This document shows positions 8,937-58,517 of a DNA stretch of 64,000 nt, one piece after another; the stretch's first letter is position 1; every line of letters starts with the position of its first letter. The stretch spans positions 1,611,001-1,675,000 of the forward strand of contig NZ_CP161920.1 of assembly GCF_040819555.1 (NCBI RefSeq), read 5' to 3'. The stretch is from Nitratireductor sp. GISD-1A_MAKvit (lineage in GTDB: Bacteria > Pseudomonadota > Alphaproteobacteria > Rhizobiales > Rhizobiaceae). Below the pieces are notes generated by a model, which saw nothing but the letters and a program-made list of their open reading frames with translations, was not told the DNA's origin and made no database searches. A program made the position numbers and the translations under genes.

Positions 8937-9567
8937 TTGCCGTTGATCTCCCGGACTTTCGCCGCCCTGTTTGTTCTTGCGTTGCCGTTGGCATCCGGGT
9001 GTAGAACGACCGAAACGGATGTTCAGGCACGGTCTGGCCTTTCCGAGAATGGCGAGGATGCGGACATTGTCGCCAACAGCCTTGTTGCGGAGCAGGATGC
9101 GCAGATCGACAGTGGGCCCATTTCAGCAGAGGCCTTTGCGGGGCAGCGCCCTCCTTCTGCAGCACTGACAGCTCTGGAGACCGGTGCGCCTGTGCGATCG
9201 GTGGCGCCGCGCAGCGCAGAACTGGATGCGCTGATTTCGCAATATGCCCGCTTCTATGACGTGCCCGTTCAACTTGTGCGCCGTGTTGTCAAACGCGAAA
9301 GCAATTTCAATCCGGCAGCTCGCAACCGCATCTATTGGGGCTTGATGCAGATTCGACACGACACCGCGCAGACCATGGGCTATCGCGGCCCTGCTTCGGG
9401 ACTTCTGGATGCCGAGACCAATCTCAAATACGCGGTCAAGTATCTCAGGGGCGCCTATATCACGGCGGAAGGCAATGAAGATCGGGCGGTGCGGCTTTAT
9501 GCGCGCGGCTATTATTACGACGCCAAGCGGAAAGGCCTGTTGAAGCAGACAGGCCCTTCGCAACTGA
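8937..9567 (+). CDS. Lytic transglycosylase (SLT) lipoprotein, split by +1 frameshift near 9554
   Basis: A periplasmic peptidoglycan-cleaving enzyme anchored as a lipoprotein. I prefer the TTG at 8937, because AAGGAG lies 6 bases upstream and a compact signal peptide ending in the lipobox LASGC follows directly; an ATG at 8904 is the alternative. The SLT domain shows the catalytic glutamate in VKRESNFNP, then GLMQI and YARGYYYDAKR. Read literally, the frame runs on to 9806 with an odd tail overlapping the cupin gene. Removing one base from the C3 run at 9554-9556 (GGGCC on the other strand) gives the ending KQTGLRN and a stop at 9565-9567, for a 209-residue protein. That ending is more typical of the family as I remember it. 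Confidence 0.8.
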
Positions 9568-9636
9568 CACCGGGCTTGGCACGAAGGCGCGGGGAAAACT
9601 GCCCTGAACTGCGTCGCATTCCAACCGCACCGGCCT

Positions 9637-10323
9637 TCAGGGCGAATCCGGATATGGCATGTGATTGGTTGGCAGGCTCGGTGTCGTTCCCGGGGTGCAG
9701 GGAGATGAACGGAAGGGCCATAGATGGTGCAGGGCCATCGGAGCGTTCTGAACCGTCAATGCCGTCGGTCCCTTGTAAATCTGCCGCTGATGTTCGTGAG
9801 GATTAGCGTGGTTTTTGCTGCGGGAAATGGAGCGCGCCCGAGAAGGGGCGCGCTCTGCTTCATGAAATTGTGCAACTCGCTTTTCCCGAATGGGAACAAA
9901 GTCGAAACCCTGATCCTGATACTGGAAAAGGAGACAGTCGGGGCCTTCAGCGCAACCGCTGTAGTGCGCAAGATTAGGCGGCAGTTCGTAAAACGAGCCA
10001 ACCGGATACTCCGTGCGCTTGCCGTCGACCTTGATGTAAAACGTACCCTTGAGCACCACCGCCTGCACGGATCGCCTGTGATAATGGTACGGGGTGTCCT
10101 TGCCACCTGGGTACACGACGAAGGCCTCATAGGGGCCGTCGCCTGCCAGCTCGCCACGGACATCGGCATATCTGATGCCGCCCGAACCCGGGATCTGGAT
10201 CCACTGGAGTTTGGAGACGGGGACAGAAACAACTTTCTTCTTGAGCGGTATCAGATCCGTGCATGCTGACAACACAGGCAACACGACAGCAAGAGAAAGG
10301 GCAATTCTTGAAAACGGGGTCAT
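9637..10323 (-). CDS. Cupin-domain lipoprotein with unusual C-terminal extension
   Basis: A secreted lipoprotein. The signal peptide from the ATG at 10323 ends in the lipobox LSAC, and the upstream ATGs add non-hydrophobic residues, so I reject them. Residues about 40-150 form a single cupin barrel with the metal-binding pattern YHYHRR and a later HY pair (LAHYSGC). The fold normally ends near DFVPIRE. Here the frame stays open for roughly 75 more residues rich in Ser, Arg, Pro and His, and it passes straight through a 10-bp hairpin at 9830-9855. The tail may be a stop-codon loss or may be real. The substrate is unknown. AGGAC lies upstream of the start. Confidence 0.7.
   Translation of the reverse strand: MTPFSRIALSLAVVLPVLSACTDLIPLKKKVVSVPVSKLQWIQIPGSGGIRYADVRGELAGDGPYEAFVVYPGGKDTPYHYHRRSVQAVVLKGTFYIKVDGKRTEYPVGSFYELPPNLAHYSGCAEGPDCLLFQYQDQGFDFVPIREKRVAQFHEAERAPSRARSISRSKNHANPHEHQRQIYKGPTALTVQNAPMALHHLWPFRSSPCTPGTTPSLPTNHMPYPDSP
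9830..9855. terminator. GC-rich hairpin inside the cupin tail
   Basis: A perfect 10-bp stem (GAGCGCGCCC and complement, 6-base loop). It lies inside the 3' extension of the cupin frame and downstream of the transglycosylase gene. Its place suggests an original bidirectional terminator, but neither side has a good T-run. Confidence 0.4.
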
Positions 10324-10897
10324 CTGAAAAAGTCCTGGGTGCTGAAAACGTTCATGGGGCCGAAAAACGGCTCCGTACTCGTGCCCCGATGGCTTGTGCC
10401 AATGGGGCGAATTCGCTGGTTTTGAAGAACTCGTGACACTGAGGTCGCGATGCGTTCTGCAATTGATTTCGAGCATGGCTTGTTTATGTGTTTACTTTCT
10501 TGCCGGCCCTGATTTCTCCACGCGAAGCCGGGCTGGTTTTGCATTGGTGGATTGTCAATTCCAGAATTCGCAATTATGAATATTGTTCTAAATCATCAGT
10601 TTGTTGGATGTTTTCTCTTATTCAAGCTGTGCCTTTTTCTGGGCAACCAACGGTTGGTACCCACCTCGTTGAGGTGGTCTCAGTTATCTGTTTATTCGTT
10701 TATTAATTCTGTTTACTTATGTGATTCCAGTCGAATTGTATCGATCTGGTCGTCTGATGGTCGCAGGACGCAATAATTGGGATGGCCTTGATCAGGGAGA
10801 GATAAAACGGCGCTGGCCAGTGGCGCCTGAACACGGGCGCTGCCGTGGACGCTCATCGAGCCACCGGAGCCACGCAATGTCGGGAAAACGCAGCGCA
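10324..10897. other. AT-rich gene-free stretch between cupin gene and carB
   Basis: About 570 bases without a convincing gene. Short open frames here lack ribosome-binding sites and bacterial protein character. The stretch from 10480 to 10740 is clearly AT-richer than its surroundings, with runs such as TTTATTCGTTTATTAATT. It holds a 7-bp stem at 10661-10677 with a 3-base loop, and a smaller ACCAA/TTGGT palindrome just before it. It could be decayed foreign DNA. I see no RNA gene that I can name. Confidence 0.5.
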
Positions 10898-10934
10898 AAA
10901 AAATGCGGCCGCCAGTCAGGGAACCGGCGGCCGC
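10898..10934 (-). terminator. Intrinsic terminator of carB
   Basis: On the minus strand a 9-bp perfect stem (GCGGCCGCC / GGCGGCCGC, 12-base loop at 10914-10925) is followed at once by A and then T7. It lies 19 bases after the frame-corrected carB stop, but inside the literally translated reading frame. This supports the corrected stop. Confidence 0.9.
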
Positions 10935-10952
10935 GCAGTCTGAACGGATTGG

Positions 10953-14451
<3,499 letters not shown>

Positions 14452-14716
14452 GGAAGATCACTCGCGCGTGTGAGCCGACGCCGCACGGGCGTATGCCGCG
14501 CGCAGGCCGGGCAAAAATTGTCGGGCTAGGCGCGCCTTATAGGCAATGGACGGGCCTTACGGAACCCCGAAAATGACGATTTCAACGGTCTACTCCAAAG
14601 AGCGGCTCCTTGACGGCTTGCATTCGTTCGGCCCGGTGGGGAGAGAAACAATCTCTAGCGTTGTTGTGTATAAGCCGATAACTAGAGTTCACTGGAAGTA
14701 ATCGGGAACTGCATCT

Positions 14717-15637: not shown

Positions 15638-15682
15638 CTCGATACCGGCTGTTCTGCTGGCAGCCAGGAGGTGGATCCGAAC

Positions 15683-16198
15683 ATGTTTGGACTGGGACGA
15701 ATTCTCGGCATTGCCGTGGCGGTGCTCAGCGGCCTGGTAACGTCGCAGGCCCCAGAGTTCGCGCAGCAATATCGCCAGCGTCTGAACGGTGCTCTCGATG
15801 AGTTGACGCGTGTTGTTGAAGCGTTCGATGCGGATGCGGCGGCGAATGATCTTTCGCGGGAGCAGGCGTTTTTTGCTTATGAGCGGACGGGCGATGCGTT
15901 CTTTCAGGATCGTGTCAACTCGGTGAGGAAGGCCATCGGCCGCCTGGAAGATCTGGAGCGACAATCTCTTGCTTTCGACGCTTCGCCGCCGGTTTTGCGG
16001 CCAGTGGTTGTGGTTCGATCTCCAGACCCTTCAACCCTGCAAGGGGCGCTGGAGGATTATGAGCCGGCTGTTCCGTTGACGCCCGCTGGCTGGCTCTGGG
16101 CGGGGGCCGGCCCTCTGTTTGGCTTCTCCCTGTTATGGCTGATCAGGTTCTTTTTTCGCCCACAAGACCGGTATTCAACCCGTAATTTTCGCATGTAA
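15683..16198 (+). CDS. DUF2937 family membrane protein
   Basis: A protein of about 171 residues of the DUF2937 family, which is of unknown function and common in alpha- and gammaproteobacteria. It has an N-terminal hydrophobic segment (GRILGIAVAVLSGLV), a central helical, charged region beginning EFAQQYRQRLNGALDELTRV, and a C-terminal membrane helix (GWLWAGAGPLFGFSLLWLI). AGGAGG lies 11 bases upstream of the ATG at 15683; a GTG inside that motif at 15671 is less likely. It seems to share an mRNA with the upstream metallopeptidase gene. Confidence 0.85.
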   Translation: MFGLGRILGIAVAVLSGLVTSQAPEFAQQYRQRLNGALDELTRVVEAFDADAAANDLSREQAFFAYERTGDAFFQDRVNSVRKAIGRLEDLERQSLAFDASPPVLRPVVVVRSPDPSTLQGALEDYEPAVPLTPAGWLWAGAGPLFGFSLLWLIRFFFRPQDRYSTRNFRM

Positions 16199-16275
16199 AA
16201 TTGCAACCGCGCGTTTAACGTGATTTTAAAAGCCTGAAACTACTTTGCCGCCAACGAATAATTTTGGGTGGGCAA

Positions 16276-17857
16276 ATGGTTTCTCTGCTTAAGCGCGTTT
16301 TGCGCCAAGGAACACGTCTGTGCAAAGACTTCGGCACTGACAGAGCCGGCAATTTTGCGTTGATGACGATCCCCGCACTCTTTGTGATTGCTAGCGGTGC
16401 GGGCTTCGCGGTCGACTACAGCAATCTGAGCCGCGTCCGTGCCGGGCTTCAAAACAGCCTCGATAGTGCTGCTCTGGCCGTGGCCCAGAAGGGCAAGAAG
16501 ATCTCCAATTCCGAGGCACAGGAAATTGCGCGGGAGTATCTCGCGGGCAATTTGCCGATGGAGTTCAAGTCACTGGTGGTGACGCGGGAAGATCAATCGG
16601 TAACGGTCTCTGCCGATGTGGACGTGGATCTCTACTTCGGTCATTTTTTTGGCAAGGACAAGATGGCCGTTGGCGCGGTTTCCAAGGCTGATGTCGCGCT
16701 CATCTCCTATGAGATCGCACTGGTTCTCGACACGACCGGCTCCATGCGTGGTCGCAAGCTCCGGGACATGAAGAAAGCCGTCAAGAATCTCATCGACAAC
16801 ATTTCCGATCAGGTGAACGATCCCGAACGGCTACGGTTTGCGCTTGTACCGTTTTCCGCATTCGTCAATGTCGGCCCGCAATATGCGCCCAAGTTCGACA
16901 AAAAGGGGAAAATGATCGAGGGGACGGGAGCGGCCCTGGCTCGATCTGGAAGGCGCCAGCGAGATACCCCAGCTTGAGCTTAAAACCGGCATTAGCCGTT
17001 TCCAAGCCTACCACAATCTTGGGTATGAATGGAAAGGCTGTGTGGAAACCCGCATGCGCGATGGCAATGCTCGCCATGACGTGGCCGATACAGCAGTGGA
17101 TCCCAATGATCCGGCAACACTTTTTGTGCCGTCCTTTGCGATCGATGAACCGCGCTACTACAGCAACAATTACATCAATTCGAGTGTGAATCCCTGGGAC
17201 ACCGGGCCTCTGGCGACCAAGGCGAAGCTTGAAAAATACGGCTTCGACCTGCTCGGTGGTGTTTTGGATAAGCTTGGTCTGGATTTTCGCACGGGTGGCT
17301 ATGGTCCGAACTACATGTGCGATTCAGAACCGCTGACGCCTCTGACCAATGATTATAGGCTGCTGAAAAGGAAGGTGAACGACTTCGAGGCCAAGGGCAA
17401 CACCAACGTCACGGAAGGGGTAGCCTGGGGCGCGCGGGTTCTTTCCCAGCAGGAGCCCTTTGCTGGTGGCGACCCCGAAAACGGACTGATCAAGATCATG
17501 GTGGTTCTAACCGATGGTGCCAACACATTCGGTGTCATGGGAAACCGACTTCGCTCCCGTTATTCGAGCTATGGCTACATGATCGATGGCCGGCTTGATG
17601 GCGAAGTGAATGCAAGCGGCAGCAAATCAACGCGTCTCATGAACAACAAGACGCTCGAGGCGTGCAATTTCGCCAAGGAAAGCGGTGTCGACATCTATAC
17701 CATCCGGCTTGAGGTGCGCGACACGGGGACCGGCAGCATGATGCGGTCGTGTGCCAGCCGACCGGATCAGTATTTCGACACGCCTTCGAGCCGGCAATTG
17801 AAGGACGTGTTCGAGAAGATCGGTGAACAGATCGTCCGGTTGCGTCTCTCGACCTGA
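16276..17857 (+). CDS. TadG-like pilus-assembly protein with von Willebrand A domain, split by +1 frameshift near 16934
   Basis: A secreted or membrane protein of the TadE/TadG family with a VWA domain. The N-terminal helix (GNFALMTIPALFVIASGAGF, residues about 29-48) is the TadG-type segment that inserts in the membrane. A MIDAS-type start DTTGSMRG follows at about residue 154, with the downstream VVLTDGANT stretch near residue 415. The reading frame breaks at EGTGAA. Removing one base from the C3 run at 16934-16936 (GGGCC on the other strand) joins it to WLDLEGASEIPQLEL. The restored product has 526 residues. A TadG role in Flp pilus assembly is known for the family, but no other tad gene is in this window, so this is an orphan copy. 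Confidence 0.88.
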
Positions 17858-17880
17858 CGGCGAAGCGCACGAAAATTGAG

Positions 17881-17911: not shown

Positions 17912-19112
17912 TTATTCCGTCAATGCCGGCTCGCCCTGCCGTTCGCGAATGAGGTTTGCAAACCGGCGAAACAGATAGTGGGAATCCTGCGGTCCGGGCG
18001 AGGCTTCGGGATGATGCTGAACCGAAAACACTGGACGTCCGGTGATCGCAAGACCGCAATTGCTGCCGTCGAAGAGCGAGACATGCGTCTCCTCCACGCC
18101 TTCGGGCAGCGTGTCTCCATCCACGGCGAAACCATGGTTCATTGAAACGATCTCCACCTTGCCGGTGGTGAAGTCCTTTACCGGGTGGTTGGCTCCGTGA
18201 TGCCCCTGATGCATTTTCACCGTCTTCGCGCCGAGGGCGAGTGCCAGCATCTGATGACCCAGGCAAATTCCGAACATGGGAATTTCCGATTCCAGAAGTT
18301 CGCGGATCATCGGTACCGCATATTCGGCAGTTGCTGCCGGGTCCCCCGGACCGTTCGAAAGGAAAATCCCATCGGGTTTCAGGGCCAGAATGTCAGCGGC
18401 GCAAGTTTTTGCCGGTACGATTGTGACTTTGGCTCCAAGTCCAGAAAGCAGCCGAAGGATGTTGCGTTTGGCACCATAATCAACGGCCACAATGTGGTGT
18501 TTCGGGGCCTCCTGTGCTCCGTACCCCTCATCCCAGACCCAGGGTGTCTCGTCCCAGCTCTGTGTCTGGCCCGAGGTGACCTCTTTCGCCAGATCGAGAT
18601 TGACAAGGCCCGGCCATTCGCGCGCTCTGGCCCTGAGCGCTTCGATATCGAAATCTCCATCCGGCTGGTGGGCAATGATGGCATTGGCGGCACCCTTCTC
18701 TCTGAGGCGTGCGGTAAGGGCGCGCGTGTCCACACCACTGATGCCGACAAGGCCGCGCCGCTTCAGCCAGGCGTCGAGATGGTTACCGGAACGATAATTT
18801 GATGGGTTCGTGATTTCGGCACGCAGAACCGCTCCGACCGCACCGGCCCCTTGCCGCGGGATGAAGATCTTCGATGTCTTCGTCATTGGCGCCTACATTG
18901 CCGATATGTGGAAAGGTGAAGGTGATGATCTGTCCCGCATAGGAGGGGTCTGTGAGGATTTCCTGATACCCGGTCAGGGCAGTGTTGAAGCAGAGCTCGC
19001 CCACCGCTTCACCGCTGGCACCCAGGCCCTTGCCCTCTATCACGGTGCCGTCAGCCAGCACTATCAGGGCTGTGGGCCGGCTCGTGCTCCAGGGAGCAGT
19101 GTTGGTTGCCAT
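17912..19112 (-). CDS. carA: Carbamoyl-phosphate synthase small (glutaminase) chain, split by +1 frameshift near 18848
   Basis: CarA hydrolyses glutamine and passes ammonia to CarB. The N-terminal part ([19 protein letters not shown] through [16 protein letters not shown]) and the class I glutamine amidotransferase domain (nucleophile in MFGICLGHQ, His/Glu in HHPEASPGP) are both complete, but in two frames. The break is at DLHPAA. Removing one base from the C4 run at 18847-18850 (AGGGGCC on the coding strand) gives DLHPAARAGAVGAV and a 399-residue protein of normal length. The ATG at 19112 is preceded by GGAGAA. It is transcribed away from yqeY. No attenuator or pyrimidine-control structure was recognised upstream. 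Confidence 0.94.
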
Positions 19113-20049: not shown

Positions 20050-22429
20050 TCAGGCTGCGCTCACGCCCGAAGCGCTGTCGCCCGATGCTCCGCCTTGATC
20101 GAACTCTTCCAGTGAGCTCGGGCGACCGAGATAGTAGCCCTGACCGATCTGGCAAAGCTCCCTGGCCAGAAAGCTCATCTCTCCGGAGGTCTCCACGCCT
20201 TCGGCCAGCACGGGCAGTCCAAGGCCGCGTCCGATGCCCAGAACGGCGCGTACAATGGTGGCTGCCTGTTCGTTGGTATCCACCTGGCGGATGAAGCTAC
20301 CGTCGATCTTGATCTTGTCGAACGGGAACGCCCGCAGATTGGAAAGGGATGAATAGCCGGTTCCGAAATCATCCATGGCCACGCGAATGCCCAGCGATTT
20401 CAGCTGCCGCAGTGCTGTGAGCGCCCTGTGCATGTCTCGCACCAGCGCGGTCTCGGTGATCTCGATCTCGAGGCGGCTTGGTGAGAGGCCGGTTTCCAGA
20501 AGAATCCGATGCACGGATTGCGGGAAGTGCACGCTATGCAGTTGTACGGCAGAGACGTTCACGGCGACCATCAGATCGTTGTCCCACCCGGCTGCTGCCT
20601 CACAGGCGGTTCGCAGCACCCATTCTCCGATCGAGACGATGGCACCGCTCTCCTCCGCTACCGGGATGAAAATGGCGGGAGAAACATTGCCGCGTTCGGG
20701 ATGTTGCCAGCGCAACAGCGCTTCATAACCAATGAGTTCTCCGTTATCGAGCTTCTTCTGGGGCTGGTAGACCAGGTGGAATTCCTTCCTAGAGACCGCG
20801 TGGCGCAGTTCGTGCTCCATGGTCCTGCGGGATCTGGCTTCCTTCCCCATGGCATCTTCGTAGAACCGATAGGTGTCCCGGCCTTCGGATTTCGCGCGAT
20901 AGAGTGCCGTATCCGCGTGATTGATCAGCGTTTCCTGGTCCTTCGCATCTTCCGGGTAGACGGCGATGCCGATGCTGGTCGACATCAGGCCTTCGCTGGC
21001 GGCGGTTTCGTTTTCGGTGCGGAAGGCTTCCAGTATTTTTTCTGCAAGTTCAGCCGCTTCGTCAGGATCGCTCAGTCCGGGAGCGATGATGGCGAACTCG
21101 TCGCCGCCAAGGCGGGCAAGCATCTGGTTCTCGCCAAGAACACGGCCCGCGTTTTCGGCAACCTTTTGTAACATGGCGTCGCCCGCTGCATGGCCAAACA
21201 GGTCATTCACCTCTTTGAAGCGGTCGAGATCCAGGCACAGCAGGGCGATGGACCTGTCTTCGGGAAGGACCTCCATTTCCTCTTGCAGACGGGCTGTAAA
21301 ACTGCGGCGGTTCGGAAGACCGGTGAGCGTGTCGTGCATGGCCAGACGGCGGATATCGGCTTCGGCTTTCTTCCGTTCGCGCAGGTCTCTGACGGCGATA
21401 ACGGTGTGGGGCTTGCCGAGATAATCGATCACCCGGGACAGGAGTTCTACCGGGTAGCTGGAGCCGTCTGCATGCTGGAGTGTCGTTTCCCAGACGGGTT
21501 CGTCTCCGATGGTCCGGTTTTTTCCGATGGAACCGAAAATCGAGGGATATTCAATGCCGGCAAGTTCTTCGACGGATCGTCCACATAATTTTGCCAGACT
21601 CTGGTTGGCAGCAACGATAACCGTGTCGTCGCACACGAGAAGCCCTTCCAGTGCCGCGTTGGCAAGGCCGCGCATCCGGCGCTCTTCCATATTGGCGCGC
21701 CGTTTGTCCCGGATGTCGACCCAAAGGGCCAGAGCCGTGAGCGCGAATATCATGAACGCGGCAAGCGTGACGGCGCCGGCCAGCCAGGCAGAGGGGACCG
21801 AAAACTGGGAGATCTCGATTGCCGGATCCGGGACGATGGAAACAGCCCCCATTGCGGTGAAGTGCATCGAGCATATTGCCAGTGTCAGTGTCAGGCTTGC
21901 AGCGATGTTTCGGACTTCCGAGCTGCGCACCAGAGCGATCCGGATTGCCAATGCTCCAAGGGCCACGCCGGAGATCAGCGAAGCAGCGACAAGCCCCATG
22001 TCCCATTCGAGGCGGCCCCTGTACTTCGAAAGCCATCATGCCCGTAAAATGCATGACAGCGATTCCCGCACCAAGGACCGCACCACCGACAAGAGAATGC
22101 TCCAGCGAACGCCGGCTGGTAGCGACGGCCATTCCGATGCCGCTGAGCAGCATTGAAAGCACAAGCGAGGCGGTCGTCAACGGGACGTCATAGGCGGTGG
22201 GAAGGGAGGGGGAGAAGGCCAGCATGGCCACAAAATGGGTAGCCCAGACACCGAATCCGAAACAGATCGCCGCCACCGTGATCCATAAGAGCCTAGTCTG
22301 TCCCGAGGTCTTGCGCAGGTGACGCAGCAATATGACGGCTGCGAATGATGCCAGTGCACCGAGGCCGCCAGCCAGGAGAACCAGCTTCAAATCGTGTTCA
22401 TTGACGATGCAGTTGTAGACCGTAAGCAC
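20050..22429 (-). CDS. MHYT-PAS-GGDEF-EAL protein, split by +1 frameshift near 22017
   Basis: A large integral-membrane c-di-GMP enzyme. The N-terminal MHYT sensor has the repeated motif seen as ATHFVAM, VMHFTGM and, after the break, SMHFTAM; MHYT domains are thought to bind copper and sense gas or redox state. A PAS domain follows (ALEGLLVCDDTVIVAANQS), then GGDEF (RLGGDEFAII, intact) and EAL (YEALLRW, EITET, DDFGTG, KIDGSFI, EGVET, intact). The break falls between the second and third MHYT motifs. Removing one base from the C4 run at 22016-22019 (AGGGGCC on the coding strand) gives EVQGRLEWDMGLV and a 792-residue protein. The start is a GTG with a weak ribosome-binding site. Confidence 0.88.
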
Positions 22430-22650: not shown

Positions 22651-24592
22651 ATGCGCTTTCCAAACTCCTTTCTGGACGAACTTCGCGACCGCGTGCCGAT
22701 TTCGCAGGTCATCGGAGCACGCGTGACCTTTGATCGTCGCAAGACGAATGCGTCGCGGGGCGACTATTGGGCCTGTTGTCCGTTTCATGGTGAGAACACC
22801 CCGAGTTTTCACTGTGAAGACCGCAAGGGACGCTACCATTGTTTCGGCTGCGGCGTTTCGGGAGATCACTTCCGTTTTCTCTCCGAGCTTGATGGTATCA
22901 GTTTTCCAGAAGCGGTGGAGCGCGTGGCTGACATGGCGGGTGTGCCCATGCCTCAGCGCGATCCGCAGGCAGAGCGCCGAGAGCAGCAGCGTGCAACCCT
23001 TTCCGAAGTCATGGAGATGGCAGCTGATTTTTTTCAGGGCATGCTACAGCAGCAGAACGGGGCAGAGGCACGCGCCTATCTGCGGGGGCGGGGCCTGTCC
23101 AGTGCGACACAGCAGGCCTTTCGGATCGGCTACGCGCCCTCGAGCCGTAACGCACTGAAGGAATACCTCGCCGGCAAGGGGGTGAGCAAAGAACAGATCG
23201 AGGCTTGCGGACTCGTGGTTCACGGTCCCGATATTCCAGTTTCTTATGACCGCTTCCGCGACCGTATCATGTTCCCGATCGAGGATGCCCGGGGGCGGGT
23301 GATCGCGTTCGGCGGGCGTGCCATGTCGAAGGATATTCCCGCAAAATACCTGAACTCACCCGATACCGAGCTCTTTCACAAGGGCACCGTGCTCTACAAT
23401 CTGGCGCGGGCACGGCGATCTGCGGCCAAGGGCGAGACGGTGATTGCGGTCGAAGGCTACATGGACGTGATCGGGCTCGCGCAGGCGGGTTTCGAAAATG
23501 CCGTTGCTCCACTGGGTACGGCGCTGACGGAAAACCAGCTTGACCTGCTCTGGCGCATGTCGGGCGAGCCCGTACTGTGCTTTGATGGTGACGAGGCCGG
23601 GTTGCGCGCAGCGTGGCGCGCAGCCGATCTGGCTCTGCCGCTGGTTCAACCTGGGCGGAGCCTGCGCTTTGCGCTATTGCCGGAAGGAAAGGACCCGGAC
23701 GATCTCGTGCGGGAGGAGGGGGCCGGATGCCTTTGCTGCCGTTCTGAACGGAGCGCGCCCTCTGGCCGACATGCTGTGGATGCGGGAAACCTCTGGCAAG
23801 GTTTTTGACACACCGGAACGTCGCGCGGAACTGGAGCGCAACCTGCAGGCACTGACTTCGAGGATCGGCGACGAAAATCTCAAGCGGCATTACAGCCAGG
23901 ACATGCGGGAGCGTGCGCGTGCATTCTTCGGTAACAGTCAAGCCCAGCGAGGGGGGCAGCGGGGCTTCCGTGATGGCAGCAATGCCGGTGGTCGCGGGCG
24001 GGCTGCGGCCGGACGGCCGGGCGGCGCCTCAGGGCGGCTCGCCGTTTCCGAAAGTCTTGCGCGTTCGGCAATGGTGCGCAGTGCCAAGCCGGCGATGCCG
24101 CTGCGGGAAGCAGCCCTGCTTGTGTCACTGGTCAACCATCCGTCGCTGATTGATGAGTACTTTGACGCAGTAGATCAGATGCTGCTGGCAAGTGCGGAAC
24201 TTGGACGGCTGCGCATGGCGATCCTCGACGCAGTTGCGCACAATCCCACCCATGATCGTGAGCTTCTCCTGAAGAAAATCGACGCTGACGGGCTTTTCCC
24301 TGTCTGGCAGCAGGCGGAAGCGCGGGTCAAGTCTGCCTATCTCTGGACGGCGCTCGAAAACGCGGCGCTTGATGATGCGCGGGAAGCCTTTGCGCAGACG
24401 CTCTACTTGCACAGGCGCGCAGGCTCTCTACATAAAGAGCTGAAAGCGGCCGAACTGGCACTGGCCAATGAATGGAACGAAGAGGATGCACGGCACCTGG
24501 TCGAGATTCAGGCGGAGCTGAGCAATCTCCAGGCAACCGAGGCGCTCATTGAGGGTTTCGGCATTCTATCGGGGCGTGCGAATCGCTCTTGA
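22651..24592 (+). CDS. dnaG: DNA primase, split by +1 frameshift near 23718
   Basis: DnaG makes RNA primers at the replication fork. The N-terminal zinc finger (CCPFHGE, then YHCFGCG), the RNA-polymerase core with the Toprim motif EGYMDVIG and the later DGDEAGLRA, and the C-terminal DnaB-binding region are all present. The frame breaks after DDLVREEG. Removing one base from the G5 run at 23718-23722 gives GPDAFAAVLNGARPLADML and a 646-residue protein of normal length. Since primase is essential, a true null mutation is very unlikely. The gene lies 360 bases upstream of rpoD, the classic dnaG-rpoD order. Confidence 0.96.
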
Positions 24593-27122: not shown

Positions 27123-27417
27123 ATGTCATTTTTGAAGCGTCTCTTCGGCGGCGGAACCGGGCAATCCACCACGGGAGGAGACAGGGCCTGTGGGCGAGGC
27201 CGTTGAGCACAAGGGGTACTCGATCCAGCCGACACCTTTTTCAGCCGACGGGCAGTTTCAGACCTGTGCGGTGATCACGAAGGAGGTGGATGGCGTCGTG
27301 AAGGAGCATCGTCTGGTTCGTGCAGACCGCTTTCCGAGTGCCGACCTTGCCGCAGATCAGGCCATCCGCAAGGGACGGCAGGTGATCGACGAACAGGGTG
27401 ATCGAATTTTCGACTGA
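27123..27417 (+). CDS. HlyU-family protein, split by +1 frameshift at 27184
   Basis: A 97-residue protein of the HlyU family after correction. It begins MSFLKRLFGGG with GGGAGA upstream. The typical core follows in the next frame: EHKGYSIQPTPF, GQFQTCAVITKEVDG and VRADRFPSADLAA. Removing one G from the G3 run at 27184-27186 (CAGGGCCTG) joins the parts as GGDRPVGEAVEHKGY. HlyU of Vibrio is described as a transcriptional activator of haemolysin, but many alphaproteobacterial members are uncharacterised, and this one lacks an obvious helix-turn-helix. I therefore name only the family. Confidence 0.85.
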
Positions 27418-31935: not shown

Positions 31936-32319
31936 TTCTTCAACTCCTGCATAGCCGGCAGGGTGCCTTTCTCGAAGATCTGTACCGGACGAATTTCAAA
32001 AGTAACGCTCTCGCCTTCCTTCATGCGTTTGGCAAAGTCGACCACTTCTTCCAGATTTTCGCAATCGACCACGTAAAATCCGAGCAATTGCTCCTTTGTT
32101 TCGGCGAAGGGGCCGTCGAGCACCACTTGCTCCATGCCTGAAGTGCGGATCGTGGTTGCAACTGAGGTGGGCATGAGGCGGATGGCCGGGGCCCATGCGG
32201 TTTGTATCCACAAGCTCCTGTTGCACGCGCCGACGCTTGGCGAGCACGGCATCATCTTCCTCCCGCGACCAAGACATGACCAGATCTTCATTGTGGTAGC
32301 AGAGAATTGTGTAGAGCAT
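31932..32319 (-). CDS. YCII/DGPF-domain protein, split by +1 frameshift near 32189
   Basis: A 128-residue DGPF protein (YCII-related family), the standard partner of ECF42 sigma factors. The first part MLYTILCYHNEDLVMSW and the name-giving DGPFAETKEQLLGFYVVD lie in two frames. Removing one base from the G4 run at 32188-32191 (a C on the coding strand, GGCCCC) joins them as NRMGPAIRLMPTSVATTIR. The ATG at 32319 has AGGAA upstream. The role of DGPF proteins is unclear; genetic association suggests they modulate the cognate sigma factor. Confidence 0.88.
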
Positions 32320-46732: not shown

Positions 46733-48725
46733 TCACGGCGCACAGGATTCAAGCGGCGTTTCAAGCGGCAACGTCACCTTGCAACAGGGGAAGTAGCCAC
46801 CCGCCTCGGCGTCGGACTGCTTATAGAAGCACAGGCCGAGATCGACGGTTTCACCGGGAATGTGGCCATTGATGCCGAGAGTGAAGGGCGTGGCCAGACC
46901 GGGAACCGTCTGTTTGGACGGGGAAACGCCGACGCCGGGTGTAAGCGATTTCGCGGAAAGCGAATCGCCACCGATACCGGCGCGGTCATGGATGTAGAGA
47001 TCGGCTTCAAGCCCCGCGGGCGTACAGAAATACGCTGCCGTCTCCAGCTCGATACAGGGCGGGAGATCGTTGGGCGGCGGGAAGCCGGGCGGCCAGCCGG
47101 GGACGGGAATGTCGCCCGGATAGGGGATAGGCTCGTAATAGCCTGCGCGGCCCTCGCAGGGTCGCCAGACCTCCACGTCGCCGACATGCCCCTTGACCTC
47201 AGGGTCTTCGAAGAACCCGTCATAATCGGCAAACCACGAGCCGAAAGGCGGTTCGTTTTTTGGCCGCACGAGCGTGCTTCTCGTAAGCTGTACGCCATGA
47301 ACGGCAAGCGGCCCGCCTTCGATGAGCCTATCTTCAAGGGCAGGGTTGTCGCGCAGCCTGTCGCCGGTTTTGACCAGCGTGGCGGCGCAGGCATCGTGGT
47401 TGAAGAAGCCTTCGGCGTCATAGCCATATTGCAGATCGATGCCGCCGGCTCCCTGTCGGTATGGTTCTGGAAAACCGACTGTATATTCCTGAGGTGCCGG
47501 CACCCAGATGCTTTCGGTTTCGGGATCGTCGGGGCTCTCGCGCCAGTAGCGCAGCACCGATGCCTCACCGCTGTCGGCGAAGCTTGAGTAGTCATAGCGG
47601 TTTTCGACCTCGCCCCGCTGGGCGAGATACATGAAGCCGCGTGTGTCGAAGGCGATGTCGGTGACCGGAAGCTCTTCTTCCGCCTCCACCGTAAGCTCCC
47701 AGCGCGGGTCGCCGGCGAAGGTGCCGTCGCGGGCGATGCCCACGGACCAGATTTCCGCTTCATCACCGACCGCGTAGTAGAGGCGTCCGCCGTGCATGGC
47801 GAGGCCATAGACGCGGCGCTCTTCCTGCGTGTAGCCCCAGCTTTTGGGCTCTTCCGCGTCGAAAGCAGCACCCTGAATGTCCATCACCGCGCCATCATCG
47901 CCCACGGGATCGAGCCCGCGTGCCGGTCGGCCCCGCCACGCCGTGATCGAACGTGTCGATGAGATTGCCGTCGATGTCGATGCGGTGAATGAGGCCGCTG
48001 TCGAGATCAGACGCGAAGAATTGGCGATGCGACCGGTCAAAGGCGATGTTGCCGATGCCGGGGCCGCTGTTCGTGTCGATATCGGCAAACAGGGTCACGG
48101 CACCGGTGATGCCGTCGATCTTCCAGATCGAACCGGGGCCGCCGCCATTCTTCTCGCCGAACTGACCGTCCATGAAGCGTGCACCAGCTTCGCCACGGCG
48201 CTGCCGTTCGGTCCGCCCGTCTTCGTCCGCGTCTTCCGTAACGATCTGGAGACCATGCATGGACGTGGCGGCGGCATAGAGGTTTGGCACGATGGCCGTG
48301 GTCTCTTCGCGTCTGCCGTCATCATAGGCGAGGCCGAACACCTGACCGATTTCAGACGCTGCGACTTCAAAGGGCGGTGGCGTGAAGACCACCTGTCCGC
48401 TGGGTGGTGCGCCGAGCCAGGTTATGTCGAAGATGCGCAGCGAGGCGCGCTCGGTGTCGATGAAGGTTTCGTCCACCGGGTCCACGCCGGGCAGGAGCCC
48501 CTCTTCAAAACCGGGAATGAGCGTGCCGGGAAAGCCGGTCACGGCCATGAAACCCGGCTGGATGATCGCGTTTTCCTGCGCGTTCGCGGGTGCTGAACTG
48601 GATAAGCCCGCCATGATTGCGAGCGCTATGGCGGTGGTGCTTTCAAGAATACGTCTGGCGATTGTGCCAGGACGATCATGTGCGTTTCCGTCGCACCGTG
48701 CCGGGAACTGCCGGTTATGCCCCAT
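46733..48725 (-). CDS. Secreted beta-propeller-like protein of unknown function, split by +1 frameshift near 47932
   Basis: After correction a 663-residue exported protein. The ATG at 48725 has GGGAGG 6 bases upstream and a signal peptide (STTAIALAIMAGLSSSAPANA). The body holds repeated blade-like stretches (FGLAYDDGRR, GSIWKIDGITGAVTLF, NIAFDRSHRQFFASDLDSGL, IAFDTRGFMYLAQRGE) suggesting a six-bladed propeller of NHL/SMP-30 type. The end is Cys-containing (CTPAGLEADLYIHDRAG and FYKQSDAEAGGYFPCCKV). The break is at FDHGVAG: removing one base from the C4 run at 47931-47934 (CGGGGCC on the coding strand) gives GRPARGLDPVGDDGAVM. It is the first gene of the operon with the DUF11/Cys-rich gene. 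I do not recognise a named family. Confidence 0.75.
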
Positions 48726-50372: not shown

Positions 50373-51766
50373 GCTCGTTTCACGCATCCTGGCGGGTATC
50401 GCCATCACAGCCCAACTGGCAATGACAGCGCATGCCCAGACCTCCGCTCCAGCCGAGGCGGCGGACGGTGAAACGCAGGCGCGCGCAGCTTCTGGCGAAC
50501 GGCACGTGGTTTATCTGCCACCGATGCTTTCAGAGCTTTTTGGACCGGGGACGGGCAGGGCTGCCCCGGCGCAACCCGCGACGTCCGTGGATGCGCCCTC
50601 TACCGATGGCGATGTTTCTGACGACAGCGCTGGCCCATCCGCACCGCCTCCCACGACGGCGGGGGCAGGGGCGCTTGCCAGGGCCTGTCGCACCGCAACG
50701 TGCCATCTCCGGGGGTTTCGTGCCGGACGAGGTGCTCGTCACTCTTGACGGAGACGAGGATGTGGCTGCCGCCGTGGCCGCGCAGTTCGGTCTGGAACTG
50801 CGCTCGGCCCGTGGGTCGGCCCTGCTTGGGCGTACCATTGCCCGGCTCGGCATACCCGATGGGCGTCCGGTGGCGTTCGTGCTTGCACAGCTTGAGGGCG
50901 ACGGCCGGCTGGCAGATCGTGTTCCGAACCACGTGTTTCAGCTTCAGCAGGCCGCCGGCGTCGTGAACTACGCCTTCGAGCGGATTGCGCTCGATGCGGG
51001 ATCGGTGAGCGGTGAGAATGTGAGCGTGGCCGTTATCGACACGGCGCTGGACGTTGCGCACCCGGCCCTTGCCGGTCGCATAGAGAGCATGTTTGACGCG
51101 CTTCCCGACATGGCGGTGAAGGACCGCGCGCATGGCACCTCTATTTCCGGGCTGATTGCTGGCGATGGGCCGTTTCGCGGCATGGCGCCCGGCGTGCGGC
51201 TCCTCCATGCACGGGCTTTCGAGGGTGGTATCTCCAGCACGAATGTGCTTCTGGCCGCGCTCGACTGGGCGGTGGAAGAGGGCGCGCAGATCGTGAATAT
51301 GAGCTTTGTCGGGCCGGAGAACCCGCTTTTCTCTTCGGCCTGCCGGAATGCGATGGCGCGCGGTGTCGTGCTTGTTGCTGCGGCTGGCAATAACGGACCG
51401 GGCGCGCCTTTCGGCTATCCTGCGGCCTATGATGGCGTGATCGCCGTGACGGCTACGGATGTGCACGACCGGGTGATGAAAAAGGCCAATCGTGGGCGCT
51501 ATATCGATCTTTCGGCGCCGGGCGTGAATGTGGTGGCCCCCATTCCCGGCGGCATGGATGTGGTCACGGGCACGTCTTTTGCAGCGGCAATCGTCTCTGG
51601 AGCGATTGCCAATCTGATCCATGCGGGCAAGGACGCTGAACCGGAGGTGCTTTCGCAGCTGTTGCGAACCACGGCGGTGGACCTTGGCGATCCGGGCCGT
51701 GACGAGGATTTCGGTGATGGACTTCTCAATGCCGGGGCAGCGATGGAAAAACGCGTGGCTGATTAA
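50365..51766 (+). CDS. Secreted subtilisin-like (S8) serine protease, split by +1 frameshift near 50682
   Basis: A 466-residue exported S8-family peptidase after correction. The signal peptide (ILAGIAITAQLAMTAHAQ) leads into a Pro/Ala/Thr-rich low-complexity linker and a propeptide-like domain (FVPDEVLVTLDGDEDVAAAV). The catalytic triad is complete: Asp in VAVIDTALD, His in RAHGTSISG and Ser in GTSFAAAIVSG, with the oxyanion Asn in AAAGNNG. Removing one G from the G3 run at 50681-50683 (CCAGGGCCTG) joins LARPVAPQRAISGGF. It overlaps the anti-sigma gene, so sigma, anti-sigma and protease are one transcription unit. The protease could act on the anti-sigma factor or on the secreted neighbours; neither is shown. 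Confidence 0.88.
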
Positions 51767-53528: not shown

Positions 53529-54394
53529 TGTGTGGTGCTCCCCGGACAGGGGGCGATTTCGGCTCGGAGCGTTGCCAGCGCCCGCACGGCTTCAATCACC
53601 GAGGGCGTGCCGCAGGACAGTGAGCCCTCCGGTACAAAGGCGCCGATCCGTGTGTTCGGGAGGGCGGAAATGGCTGGATGGCGTGGCACATATTCCCCAA
53701 GTGTCGGCGCTTTTTGAGGCGTGCTGATGCTGATGACGTCCGGTCGAGCGGCAATCACCTGCTCCAGCGGAAAAGGAGCAACGCCAATGATACCCAGTTC
53801 GGCGGCAAGATTGGCAAACCCGGCAGCCCGCATCACGGAATCGGCCAGTGTGCCGCGGCCCGAGGCGATGCCGTTCTGATCGTAGGCGATCATGGTGGGG
53901 CGTCTGTCACACTGGCTTGCGGCAATCGCCTCGAGTTCTTTGGTGAAACTGTCAGCAACGGTTTCCGCTCTCTCTTCCTGCCCGAGGAGTGCTCCCATGC
54001 GCAGAATTTCATCGGGAATGGTTTCAAGCGTCTGTGCGAAGGAGAATTCCTCGACATGAAAACCCAGGCGTTTCAGCAGGGCGGTCGTGTTGTGGAGCGA
54101 GTAGGTGCCGGTGACCACCAGGTCTGGCTTTTCCAGAAACACCTCTTCGGCGAGCCCGCGATTGACCGGGTAGCTGTGGGCTTTCTCATGCAGCATGGAG
54201 AGGCTGGGTTCACGCGCGAGGAAGGAAACGGAGACAAGCTGCTCCGGTTCGGCCAGCGTCATGGCGAGTTGATCGGTACAAAGATTGAGCGACATGACAC
54301 GTTTTGGCGCGGCTGAAACCGGCGCGACAAGCAGCGCGCCGGCCAGAAGAACGAGGCCGGAAAGGCGGGGAAGGCGTTTCCGGCGCTGCAGCAT
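53525..54394 (-). CDS. btuF: Vitamin B12 ABC transporter, periplasmic binding protein
   Basis: A 289-residue class III solute-binding protein. The signal peptide is RLSGLVLLAGALLVAPVSA. The mature domain has the two-lobed BtuF/FhuD layout (RVMSLNLCTDQLAMTLAEPE, KPDLVVTGTY, ARPDVISISTPQ). The start ATG overlaps the stop of the TonB receptor gene (ATGA), which couples the four genes btuB-F-C-D. Confidence 0.9.
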   Translation of the reverse strand: MLQRRKRLPRLSGLVLLAGALLVAPVSAAPKRVMSLNLCTDQLAMTLAEPEQLVSVSFLAREPSLSMLHEKAHSYPVNRGLAEEVFLEKPDLVVTGTYSLHNTTALLKRLGFHVEEFSFAQTLETIPDEILRMGALLGQEERAETVADSFTKELEAIAASQCDRRPTMIAYDQNGIASGRGTLADSVMRAAGFANLAAELGIIGVAPFPLEQVIAARPDVISISTPQKAPTLGEYVPRHPAISALPNTRIGAFVPEGSLSCGTPSVIEAVRALATLRAEIAPCPGSTTQ

Positions 54395-56247
54395 CAGGGC
54401 GCGAACTTTGCGCGGAAGCCGGCGAAGACGCCGAAGCCGGGTGTGCCGTAGCCTTCCACGACCTCATAATTCTGATCGAGCAGGTTTTCGCCACGCAGAT
54501 AAAGCTCCGTGTTCTCGTTCGGCTTGTAGGCAATTTTCGCGTTTACAAGGACGTGGTCATCAAGCTTCGAGCGGGGGCTGTCGACATAGCCGTCGACCGT
54601 ATCGAGAGCGATTTTCGCTGTGGCTCCGATTTCCCAGCGCTCGGCCGGGCGGACTGTCGCTCCAAGAGCGATGTCATGTTTAGGGATGCGCACTTCGCGC
54701 AGACCATCCGTCTGGGTCGCCTTCGTGTAGGTGTACGCGCCACGCAGGTCCAGCCAGTCGGTTGCCGCATAGGAAAACGACGCCTCCACACCGCGCGTTT
54801 TGACCACGCCATCGGTCTGGATGTTCTGATAGGTCACGGGATCGTATCCGATATGATCCTCGACATCGATCATGAAGAAGGTGAGATTGGTGACAAGCCT
54901 GTCATCCTGAAAGCGCTGTTCAACGCCGATATCGAAGCCAAGGCTTGTTTCCGGCTTCAGGTCGATGTTGCCATAGACAGGCGCATAAAGCTCATAAAGG
55001 CTCGGCGCGCGATATCCCGTTCCGACCGAGGCGTGGAAACGTGTTCCGGTGCTGGCAAGTTCATAGGATCCTGTGGCGCGCCAGGAGGTGTGCCCGCCGA
55101 AGGTGCCGTGTTCGTCATGGCGCAGGCCCGCTGTCAGTGTCAAAGCGTCAAACGGGCTGTAGATCGCCTCGATCCAGCCGCCGCCCATAGAGACGCTTTT
55201 ATCAACACTTGCGGTGGTTGCTGCCTGGCGCTCCCAGTCCGCGCCGAAATTGACCGTGAGTTCGGGAGAAACGTCAAGCGAGCCCAGATAGTCGAATTTG
55301 TAGCGCAGTCCGTCGAAGGTTGAGGTGGTACCGAAGCCGCTGGTGCTTTCACGGGCGGTGTCGGATATCTGTGCCGATACCGTGTTGTTCAATTGACCGT
55401 CAAACATTGAGAATTCCGCGCCGATGCGCCCGGCCGCCTGCCGAAACTTTCCGTTAGCGGGGGTGTCGGCGATGGGATAACCATCATCGGTCTGCGTTGA
55501 ACCATTCAACAGAAGCCCACTGGCGAAAACGGCAAGATCGTCGCTGATCTCGTATCGCCCGCCGAGGGTCGCGGTCAGATTGGTGTATCCGTCGTCCTCA
55601 ACGCCTGAGGACGCCATCGAGAACCCATCGGTGGTGAAGCCAGACAAAGAAAGGCCAAATTCGCCACGGTCGAAACCGCCCGTCAGCGTGTAGTTGCCAA
55701 AGCCCGTTTTGCGCGACCCGCCTTCGACGTGAATGCCGTGCTCAATGCCCTGCGGAATACCGCCAAGTGTCGAAAGATTGACCACGCCGGCAATTGCATC
55801 GGAGCCATAGAGCGTGCTCTGCGAGCCTTTCAGAACTTCGATCCGCCCAATGCCGCCGGAGAGAAGATGACCATAGGCGGGCTGAACGTTGGGCCCCGAC
55901 ACCTCGGAAATGTCGATGCCCTCGAAGAGGGTCTTTACATATTGCCCACGCAGGCCGCGCATTATCAGGGTCGTGGTGTTGCCTGGCCCGCCATTGGGGG
56001 AGAGATAGAGGCCCGGAAGCTGGTTGAGATAATCCTGCACGAGAGGCAGAGACTGTTCCTCGATATTTTTTCGCTCGATGACATGCACGGAAGAGCCCAC
56101 TTTCGCAGCCTCGATAGGGGTGCGGTTGGGGGTGATAACCAGGGTCTCGAGCGCGAAATCCTGAGCCTGGGCCGTTTCTGCGCTTATACCCAGAATCAGC
56201 ACGGATGCGCCAAGCAGTTGAAAGGCTCTGTGGTGTTTGGAACGCAT
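54394..56247 (-). CDS. btuB: TonB-dependent outer-membrane receptor (cobalamin type)
   Basis: A protein of about 617 residues, a 22-strand beta-barrel receptor driven by TonB. The ATG at 56247 (GGAGGA upstream) gives a signal peptide (LGASVLILGISAETAQAQ). The TonB box is probably LETLVITPNR, and the plug domain contains PLVQDYLNQLPGLYLS and IMRGLRGQYVKTLFEGID. The C-terminal end KFAP lacks the terminal aromatic residue common in porins. BtuB is supported by the cobalamin riboswitch directly upstream and by the BtuFCD genes after it. Confidence 0.93.
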   Translation of the reverse strand: MRSKHHRAFQLLGASVLILGISAETAQAQDFALETLVITPNRTPIEAAKVGSSVHVIERKNIEEQSLPLVQDYLNQLPGLYLSPNGGPGNTTTLIMRGLRGQYVKTLFEGIDISEVSGPNVQPAYGHLLSGGIGRIEVLKGSQSTLYGSDAIAGVVNLSTLGGIPQGIEHGIHVEGGSRKTGFGNYTLTGGFDRGEFGLSLSGFTTDGFSMASSGVEDDGYTNLTATLGGRYEISDDLAVFASGLLLNGSTQTDDGYPIADTPANGKFRQAAGRIGAEFSMFDGQLNNTVSAQISDTARESTSGFGTTSTFDGLRYKFDYLGSLDVSPELTVNFGADWERQAATTASVDKSVSMGGGWIEAIYSPFDALTLTAGLRHDEHGTFGGHTSWRATGSYELASTGTRFHASVGTGYRAPSLYELYAPVYGNIDLKPETSLGFDIGVEQRFQDDRLVTNLTFFMIDVEDHIGYDPVTYQNIQTDGVVKTRGVEASFSYAATDWLDLRGAYTYTKATQTDGLREVRIPKHDIALGATVRPAERWEIGATAKIALDTVDGYVDSPRSKLDDHVLVNAKIAYKPNENTELYLRGENLLDQNYEVVEGYGTPGFGVFAGFRAKFAP

Positions 56248-56384
56248 GCATATCCTCCAGCGTGATCGATTATTCAGTTTGGCTGGAGAGCGACGGCTGT
56301 CTGACTTTTGTCCCCCCGCCAGCGATGACAATCGCCACCACTGCGAGAACCACAGCCCCGGAAGCATCCCGCATCCGGACGGTG

Positions 56385-56575
56385 ACGGCCCAAGGCAGGT
56401 TTCCTGGCTCACGCTTCATCGGCTGCCTCGCCTTCCCGGGTATTGCACCCAGTGGCGTTCGAGGAGCCTCAGCGCTCACAGTTGCGGGAGCAGCCACGGC
56501 TTGGGCCATTTCGGTATGACCTTTCCGTGTTCCCTTTTCCCCGGACGATGAACACCGGCCGGAGCACCTCAAGCG
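56385..56575 (-). promoter_or_regulatory. Cobalamin (adenosylcobalamin) riboswitch
   Basis: On the minus strand the B12 box AGCCAGGAAACCTGCCTT is exact at 56392-56409. Upstream in the RNA come the other conserved parts: AAAAGGGAACACGG, GCTGCTCCCGCAACTGTGAG and GCCACTGGG followed by CCGGGAAGGCG. The outer boundaries are estimates. It lies about 140 bases before btuB and should shut the operon when B12 is plentiful, probably by hiding the btuB ribosome-binding site. Confidence 0.95.
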
Positions 56576-56863
56576 AACCCGGATCGCTTAGCAAGTGGTT
56601 ATGAAAGCGTCAATTGGCCCGGGTGTTTAGGAAACGGACCGGCTGGCAGCGGCGGCGCAGGCTCTGCCAGATCCGTGAAGTGCTTCTTGTTGTAAAATCG
56701 GCTTTTCGTATAGTTTTTACGGCAGTGCTGTCGCAAATCCGTCATTGCGATTGTCGAATAAGTAGCAGAATTTGCTTTCCGAACCCTGTGGATTTTTGAC
56801 ATCGGGGGCGGGATAAGAAATGCTAATCGGGAACCGAAAACGGTAGATAATGGGAGTGCGTCG

Positions 56864-58517
56864 ATGACGTTTTTCAAGAGCAATGGCAAGAAGGTGCCAT
56901 CCCGCGTCGCTGAAATGGCGAACGAGGCGAGGGCCGGCAGGATGGACCGACGAGAGTTTCTTGCGCTCGCAAGCGCGCTTGGCGCATCGACGGCTGCCGC
57001 TTATGGCATGCTCGGCTTGACTGCGCCGGGGCAGGCGATGGCGCAGGAGCCCAAGAAGGGTGGAACGCTGCGTGTTGCGATGTTCATCAAGGACCCGAAG
57101 GACCCGCGAACGGCCGACTGGTCAGAGATTGCCAACGCGATGCGCCAGACACTTGAGCCGCTGGTGAAGTACACTCGCGACTTCACTTTCGAGGGCAAGC
57201 TCCTGGAGAGCTGGGAGGTCAATGAGGATGCGACCGAATACATCCTGCATGTGCGCCCCGGTGTTACCTGGAACAATGGCGATGCCTTTACTGCCGATGA
57301 TGTGATCTACAACTTCAATCGCTGGTGTGATCAGACGGTTGAGGGCAACTCCATGCCGGCACGCATGGCTTCGCTTATCGATCCTGAGACCAAACAGGCG
57401 CGCGAGGGCGCGATCGAGAAGGTCGACGACATGACGGTGAAGCTGAATTTGTCGGCGCCCGATATTTCGATTATTCCCGGCATGTCGGATTATCCGGCCC
57501 TGATCGTTCATCCGAGCTTCGATGAAACGGGGCGCGATTTTGTTGCCAACCCGATCGGCACCGGCCCCCTTCGAACTGGTGTCCTATGAGGTGGGCAATC
57601 GCGTGGAGTTGAAGAAGCGCGAAGACGGCAAATGGTGGGGTGGCGAGGCCTATCTCGACGGCATCGAGTTCATCGATTACGGCACGGATCCGTCCGCGAC
57701 CGTCAGCGCCTTCGAGTCCGGAGAAATCCATACCAACTACGAAACAACTGCTGATTTCGTGGACATCCTGGATTCACTCGGGCTGGTTAAATCCGAGGTC
57801 ACCACCGCCACGACGATCGTGGCGCGCACCAATGTCGACAACAAACCCTATGATGACGAGAAGGTTCGTCGGGCTCTGCAGCGTGCAGTCGACAACCAGA
57901 CGGTTCTGGCGCTCGGCTATAACAATGCCGGCGAAGTGGCAGAAAACCACCATGTCTGCCCGATCCATCCCGAATATGCCGAGCTGCCGAAGCTGGAACG
58001 CAATCTGGACGAAGCCAAGGCGCTCATGGAAGAAGCCGGCCAGATGGATTTCGAGCACGAGCTCATCACCGTGGATGAGGACTGGCACAAGAACACGGGC
58101 GACGCCATCGCCGCCCAGTTGCGCGAGGCCGGCTTCAAGGTGAAGCGCACGGTCCTTCCCGGCTCCACCTTCTGGAACGACTGGACGAAGTATCCCTTCT
58201 CCATGACCAACTGGAACATGCGTCCGCTGGGCATCCAGGTGGTGGCGCTCGCCTACCGTACAGGCGAGGCGTGGAACGAATCCGCTTATTCCAACGCGGA
58301 GCTCGACGAGCTGATCGAGGAAGCGCTCGCCATCCCCAATCCTGACAACCGCCGCAAGGTGATGAAGAAGATCGAGGAAATCCTTCAGGGATCCGGCATC
58401 ATTCTTCAGCCTTATTGGCGCAAGCTATACAACCACTCGGTGGAGGCCGTGAAAAACCACGGTATGCACCAGACTTTCGAGATCGATCTCGAAAAGGTCT
58501 GGCTCGACGAGGGGTAA
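56864..58517 (+). CDS. Peptide/oligosaccharide-type ABC solute-binding protein (family 5), split by +1 frameshift near 57567
   Basis: A 550-residue extracytoplasmic solute-binding protein of family 5 (Opp/Dpp-like). It has a Tat signal: [16 protein letters not shown], followed by APGQAMAQ. The family 5 core is visible in [17 protein letters not shown], then [20 protein letters not shown] with YNFNRW. The break is at NPIGTGP. Removing one base from the C5 run at 57565-57569 (AGGGGGCC on the other strand) joins [17 protein letters not shown]. It is the first gene of a four-gene transporter operon. The ligand is unknown. The ribosome-binding site GGGAG precedes the ATG. Confidence 0.92.

Follow-up and report, generated by a model that had tools for sequence, protein, structure and literature searches.

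Extra guanines at GGCC in a Nitratireductor genome and their probable origin as consensus errors at Dnd phosphorothioate sites

Why should eleven genes within one 64,000-nucleotide stretch of a bacterial genome, dnaG, carA and carB among them, each carry one G too many, always in a G-run directly followed by CC? The stretch (G000:C2:1611001-1675000; the window, in what follows) belongs to a genome of 4.116 Mb in two contigs, here denoted G000, which is of the genus Nitratireductor or very close to it: among the best 80 loci, the named organism whose RpoD matches most closely is Nitratireductor luteus (91%), and its small contig is similar to Nitratireductor plasmids. A first-pass annotation of the window had read the extra bases as a systematic consensus error at GGCC, possibly caused by a methylated base. 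Comparison with relatives bears out the systematic error; a methylated base finds no such backing, as the whole genome has no match to PF00145 and has instead a Dnd phosphorothioation system of the GGCC class. We consider it very probable that the extra Gs are consensus errors made at GGCC phosphorothioates in native DNA. The organism's own DNA would then lack them, and the genes would be intact in vivo.

An excess of extra bases at G-runs followed by CC

Reading frames were compared with those of three relatives, G003, G006 and G007, over 364 kb around the window. Kept were net differences of +1 or -1 that spanned at most 12 bases, had the support of more than one relative and lay in doubly covered coding sequence. 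In the 219,094 coding bases covered by at least two of the three relatives, there are 29 one-base-extra events, and 25 of them lie at a called G-run followed by CC (G3+CC); by chance, about 4% of coding positions are close to a run of this kind. The count of indels that the first-pass annotation had proposed as a check gives one extra base at 25 of 606 G3+CC runs versus 2 of the 4,896 remaining runs of three or more Gs or Cs, which supports a consensus error tied to GGCC. None of the eight one-base-short events of G000 is at a G3+CC run. When agreement of G003, G006 and G007 is required, G000 has 21 extra-base events, of which 20 fall at GGGCC or GGCCC; treated likewise, none of these relatives has an extra-base event with threefold support, and with two-relative support they have 2, 3 and 2, respectively. 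Extrapolation from the alignment counts gives about 470 sites per genome. The k-mer count alone provides a hint only, with AGGGCCT at 1.66-fold and AGGCCT at 0.83-fold relative to two relatives.

The bases around GGCC also matter. When each palindromic site is entered in both orientations, 25 of 1,306 coding orientations with a preceding purine are affected versus 0 of 2,358 with a preceding pyrimidine (p=5e-12). Sorted by both flanks, the affected classes are AGGCCT (4/60), GGGCCG (13/277), AGGCCG (6/318) and AGGCCC (2/106), and the unaffected ones include CGGCCA (0/432), CGGCCG (0/193), AGGCCA (0/167), GGGCCA (0/124), TGGCCA (0/111) and GGGCCC (0/44); the four that end in A total 0 of 834. 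Among the 25 coding events, A or G precedes GGCC and no A follows, and 10 of the 11 window sites fit this flank rule. In all, the error is found at 25 of the 1,832 GGCC sites in coding sequence, a count of errors that need not equal the number of marks.

The eleven window sites all lie where the first-pass annotation had put them, and in alignments with G003, G006, G007, G009 and the Nitratireductor luteus contig L027, each where it spans a site, every run is one base longer in G000. Gene names taken from the first pass are marked as such below.

9552..9556, minus strand: SLT (transglycosylase) gene, near its 3' end; G-run followed by CC, one base extra, with only two relatives spanning
11031..11037, minus strand: carB, near its 3' end; G-run followed by CC, one base extra
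16932..16936, minus strand: TadG-like gene (first-pass name); G-run followed by CC, one base extra
18845..18850, minus strand: carA; G-run followed by CC, one base extra
22014..22019, minus strand: MHYT-GGDEF-EAL gene (first-pass name); G-run followed by CC, one base extra
23718..23724, plus strand: dnaG; G-run followed by CC, one base extra
27184..27188, plus strand: putative HlyU-family gene (first-pass name); G-run followed by CC, one base extra
32188..32194, strand ambiguous: DGPF/YCII-like gene; GGGGCCC run, one base extra
47929..47934, minus strand: propeller gene (first-pass name); G-run followed by CC, one base extra
50681..50685, plus strand: S8 protease gene (first-pass name); G-run followed by CC, one base extra
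57563..57569, minus strand: solute-binding protein gene (first-pass name); G-run followed by CC, one base extra

The G-run is on the coding strand in seven genes, on the template strand in three and ambiguous in one, a tally made in the first pass that matches the strands of the open reading frames (ORFs) and of the runs. To call all of these genes broken was partly too strong. The description is apt for carA, whose CPSase_sm_chain domain is divided between two ORFs, for dnaG, whose DnaG domains are spread over two ORFs, and for the TadG-like, MHYT, propeller, S8 and solute-binding genes, which are likewise clearly split or shortened. It does not hold for carB or for the gene of the SLT protein. 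There the shift comes, in the SLT gene and in carB, at residue 206 of 209 of the G006 counterpart and at residue 1140 of 1165 in relatives, respectively, so that the C-terminal end alone is altered; carB retains every Pfam domain within one ORF. The alignments are not equally strong throughout. Site 9554 is the weakest case, with its two spanning relatives and an alignment that stops shortly beyond the run. At 27184, three longer relative alignments give +1 and two short ones a net +3, and among the relative ORFs kept none is on the gene's strand. At 50681, one short G003 alignment is off by a base and the long alignments give +1 in three of three relatives. The DGPF/YCII-like ORF covers only positions 43-92 of the 95 of the YCII profile. 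Among the doubly covered coding sites of the window there are no further G3+CC breaks.

An alignment-free scan of codon usage was also made, in a second version that replaced a first one found too insensitive. It recovers 14 of the 25 alignment-based sites, and it also counts G-runs near a true shift, which raises the counts for other G-runs of G000. Sites of the affected class score as extra-base in 17 of 404 cases in the contiguous region, 28 of 398 in the distal chromosome and 10 of 83 on the plasmid (55 of 885 together), and in 0 of 375, 0 of 401 and 0 of 360 cases in G003, G006 and G007. The excess is thus present on both chromosome and plasmid of G000. Other G-runs of G000 score 52 of 8,140 (contiguous), 71 of 7,967 (distal) and 14 of 1,654 (plasmid), and each relative has 11 to 23 of about 8,200. 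For YGGGCC, the extra-base scores of G000 are 1/571, 10/539 and 2/136 for these three sets, including runs near true shifts. Class sites scored as missing a base number 2, 3 and 3 in G003, G006 and G007.

The dnd cluster and the DndC specificity loop

Dnd phosphorothioation occurs at GGCC and marks part of the sites only. Dnd genes were therefore searched for as a prediction. The earlier remark that many GGCC sites in the window are unaffected fits such partial marking together with the flank rule (as in CGGCCA, 0/432, and CGGCCG, 0/193). DndC is present in G000 (TIGR03183, 690 bits with a cut-off of 290), and of ten genomes of the genus, two of them just 86% complete, G000 alone has DndC above the cut-off and G000 alone has DndE. 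Wider samples place DndC above the cut-off in 5 of 397 genomes of the order and 11 of 398 of the phylum (G000 included).

The dnd locus, at C2:2750020-2756244, consists of dndA on the minus strand, then dndB-dndC-dndD-dndE, and DndA, DndB, DndC and DndE all score above their NCBIfam cut-offs. DndB ends early, at profile position 250 of 355 and at a G3+CC run. DndD is in three consecutive pieces (TIGR03185 positions 1-132, 132-498 and 477-649 of 650), each of which scores under the whole-protein cut-off, and the frame breaks between them coincide with G3+CC runs. These breaks in dndB and dndD, judged from family profiles rather than from relatives, are what would be expected if the artefact also strikes the genes that cause it. 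In PADLOC, the PbeC model scores slightly above DndD for all three DndD pieces.

The specificity loop of the G000 DndC reads GYPAP-RPK-FRW and fits an Arg-X-Lys/Arg pattern, in agreement with a second prediction. The DndC loop is described as tracking the target, with T-R-S for GAAC/GTTC, T-Q-N or N-Q-T for GATC and R-X-K/R for GGCC, and the loop of Streptomyces lividans DndC is R-P-K (PMC12193691). GGCC marking is likewise described for Pseudomonas fluorescens (PMC11931770).

Other loops were seen in passing. A shorter DndC-like protein of G006 (G006:C1:1137839-1138660; L170) scores under the cut-off and has the loop T-N-S (GYPPPTNSFRW), which also occurs in L194 (G101); G006 is without an excess of GGCC errors in the stretch scanned. 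In other genomes with Dnd, the loops S-R-R (L192 and L193), R-P-L (L205) and S-K-R (L206) match none of the three published patterns.

Beside the cluster of G000 lie PbeA-, Orf5- and PbeC-like genes (G000:C2:2743407-2749844; L172:8407-14844), and DndFGH models are not among the matches listed for the 20 ORFs scanned near it. Pbe is reportedly a phosphorothioate-linked antiviral system of archaea.

Replication in other organisms and rival explanations

When plasmid records were searched with DndC by tblastn, Arthrobacter sp. StoSoilB13 came up, whose DndC is 67% identical to that of G000 and has the same R-P-K loop. Its two large replicons were scanned over 441 kb: 36 class sites among 733 have an extra-base score, versus 118 among 12,245 for other G-runs (p=1.6e-13), and 6 class sites score as missing a base. 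In a 341-kb sample, the base that follows the AGGGCC events is T in six, G in five, C in four and A in none; A follows 75 of 310 such sites. Five sites were followed up with Pfam: three are true splits, with adjoining pieces of a single family or enzyme (6PGD, PTR2 and a class II tRNA synthetase), the MFS case is ambiguous, and the fifth was scored falsely, as two separate genes meet there. Across about 20 kb aligned with other Arthrobacter plasmids there are three extra-base events, all at G3+CC, and one missing-base event elsewhere. Two Arthrobacter control plasmids, ERGS1:01 (4/382 versus 32/4,584) and ZXY-2 (0/80 versus 4/1,365), have no significant excess; both are records without dndC among the matches listed, in a search that covered plasmid records. 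Two draft genomes with Dnd and an R-P-K loop, G213 (about 200 contigs) and G634 (about 50 contigs), also lack an excess, with 2 of 368 and 4 of 452. Both are presumed to be short-read assemblies, and this would argue against real mutation.

The reading that we favor is that the consensus is wrong at sulfur-bearing sites. The Dnd system of G000, with its GGCC-class DndC, would swap a non-bridging backbone oxygen for sulfur at some GGCC sites, and the sulfur may alter polymerase kinetics (on PacBio instruments) or current (on nanopore instruments), such that the consensus comes out one G too long. The error would be confined to sites with suitable flanks and a high enough frequency of modification, and the positions of the errors would trace part of the phosphorothioate pattern. 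Here we infer the presence of sulfur, its position at the error sites and its role in adding a G. Sulfur is described as changing polymerase kinetics in single-molecule real-time (SMRT) sequencing (PMC8053081), and nanopore error is described as rising around phosphorothioated bases (PMC9069010).

A methylated cytosine at GGCC, as suggested in the first pass, could produce the same kind of systematic error, in that nanopore indel errors at methylated sites are known (PMC12506013). GGCC is a common methyltransferase target. Methyltransferases, however, usually mark their sites nearly completely, and 25 of 1,832 coding GGCC sites are affected here. The genome-wide look for a GGCC cytosine methyltransferase of the HaeIII type that had been proposed as a check gave no PF00145 match in G000, where the same search matches 10 of 14 control genomes; it did not extend to other methyltransferase families. 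For both PF01555 enzymes of G000, the best matches are models of adenine methyltransferases (CcrM with 646 bits for one, 92 bits for the other, each under the cut-off). Without a C5-cytosine enzyme among these matches, we regard methylation as an improbable cause. A plain platform error at homopolymers or in G+C contexts, with no modification and a coincidental Dnd system, seems to us similarly improbable. The errors are indeed single-base extensions of G-runs, but only 2 of 4,896 other G/C runs are affected, none was found in the scan of G003 and G007 (2 and 1 contigs, and perhaps also long-read assemblies), and the excess recurs in the same context in an unrelated organism with Dnd and an R-P-K loop, but not in the two Arthrobacter controls.

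Real +1 mutations would have the same correlation with Dnd and with context as the artefact, if phosphorothioates or Dnd activity provoke G insertion during replication and the genes are truly shifted. Such mutations would, however, break carA and dnaG, two members of the dnd cluster itself and a class II aminoacyl-tRNA synthetase of Arthrobacter, they would imply about 470 events per genome, and the two many-contig genomes with Dnd and R-P-K loops are without an excess; we hold this explanation to be very improbable. Restoration of the proteins by programmed frameshifting or by slippage during transcription is scarcely credible. G-runs are able to slip, but three of the 11 genes have the run on their template strand, the shift site is absent from the relatives aligned and the sites are scattered among unrelated genes.

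Several observations weigh against consensus error at phosphorothioates. Within the Nitratireductor set, 4 of the 29 extra-base events of G000 are not at G3+CC, and one of the three extra-base events of G006 (with two-relative support) is. Site 32188 violates the flank rule or is ambiguous. Nine class sites of G000 score as missing a base (0 contiguous, 6 distal, 3 plasmid), and YGGGCC is not clean in the distal chromosome, where beside the 10 extra-base scores among 539 there are 6 missing-base ones. YGGGCC is not clean in StoSoilB13 either (15/965), and one of its three aligned extra-base events, in a GGGGCCCC run, is off the flank rule. StoSoilB13 is the single independent replicate. Both Illumina HiSeq 2500 and PacBio Sequel II reads are named for the Arthrobacter isolates of the StoSoil laboratory (PMC8262997). 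The presumed short-read status of G213 and G634 is judged only from contig number, and neither genome offers a positive control for the scan. Massilia H6 (R-P-K, 1/15), Nonomuraea (K-P-K, 2/77) and Streptomyces NBC_00582 (1/102, its loop not found by the pattern used) give no clear signal in samples of 29 to 41 kb each. Finally, in E. coli B7A, which has another motif, only two sites are described as more than 35% modified (PMC6459556); given such low occupancy, a majority consensus error would need either higher occupancy in G000 or a caller that tips under a majority.

The second of the two PF01555 methyltransferases of G000 (L152:7194-8509) was considered as a candidate for GGCC and rejected, as it has a DPPY motif and weak matches to adenine enzymes. 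Its gene adjoins a putative TraF-like peptidase gene, and the region is perhaps within an integrative conjugative element of G000.

Relation to known modification effects

With the Dnd systems that act at GGCC in Streptomyces lividans 1326 and Pseudomonas fluorescens Pf0-1, G000 has in common dndABCDE, the GGCC core and an effect at only part of the sites, and with S. lividans also the R-P-K loop of DndC. It differs in being known from assembly errors and not from chemistry, in the extended flanks and in restriction-like genes that, among the 20 ORFs scanned, resemble Pbe. On such flanks, the E. coli B7A study describes no extended preference (PMC6459556), and a Salmonella study proposed one flanking base (PMC9521924). 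The closest parallel on the sequencing side is methylation: the errors of PMC12506013 are also strain-specific consensus errors in native DNA, indels included. The modification in G000 would, however, be backbone sulfur, and a G is always gained, whereas the typing-locus indels in that study lost a base, with one exception. Nanopore and SMRT detection of phosphorothioates (PMC9069010, PMC8053081) likewise relies on a local disturbance of the read-out by sulfur; reads or kinetics are compared there by design, whereas in G000 the trace is fixed in the deposited consensus and shifts reading frames.

That modified native DNA leads to consensus errors is already known for methylation (PMC12506013), and a sulfur version with a signature of its own appears to be new: among the matches listed, judged by title and the start of the abstract and drawn from open-access literature (subscription papers were mostly outside), none ties phosphorothioates to single-base insertions in a consensus. 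We lean, by a little, towards the broader view that deposited long-read assemblies hold a readable footprint of phosphorothioation at base resolution: with GGCC-class Dnd, highly modified sites would gain one G in the consensus, and their flanks would reveal an extended target preference of DndCDE. If so, phosphorothioate maps of organisms with GGCC-class Dnd could be drawn from existing assemblies with no further experiment, a cheap route to Dnd-active strains and their marked GGCC sites that bears on how Dnd selects a small subset of its sites. Many "pseudogenes" would then be spurious, and frameshift counts, pseudogene lists and completeness estimates of Dnd-bearing organisms sequenced from native DNA could err in a predictable manner. 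For G000, a false story of dead essential genes is separated from the probable real one, that of a sulfur-marked genome.

Two records met on the way are themselves unusual. G007 is 86% complete though it is a single contig, and it is without G-run errors of the G3+CC type in the stretch scanned. The megabase "plasmids" of StoSoilB13, NZ_AP024648.1 and NZ_AP024649.1, have 0 and 1 listed proteins, and the latter holds housekeeping genes such as those for 6-phosphogluconate dehydrogenase and a tRNA synthetase; this possibly results from frame errors or from a chromosome that was split and mis-labelled.

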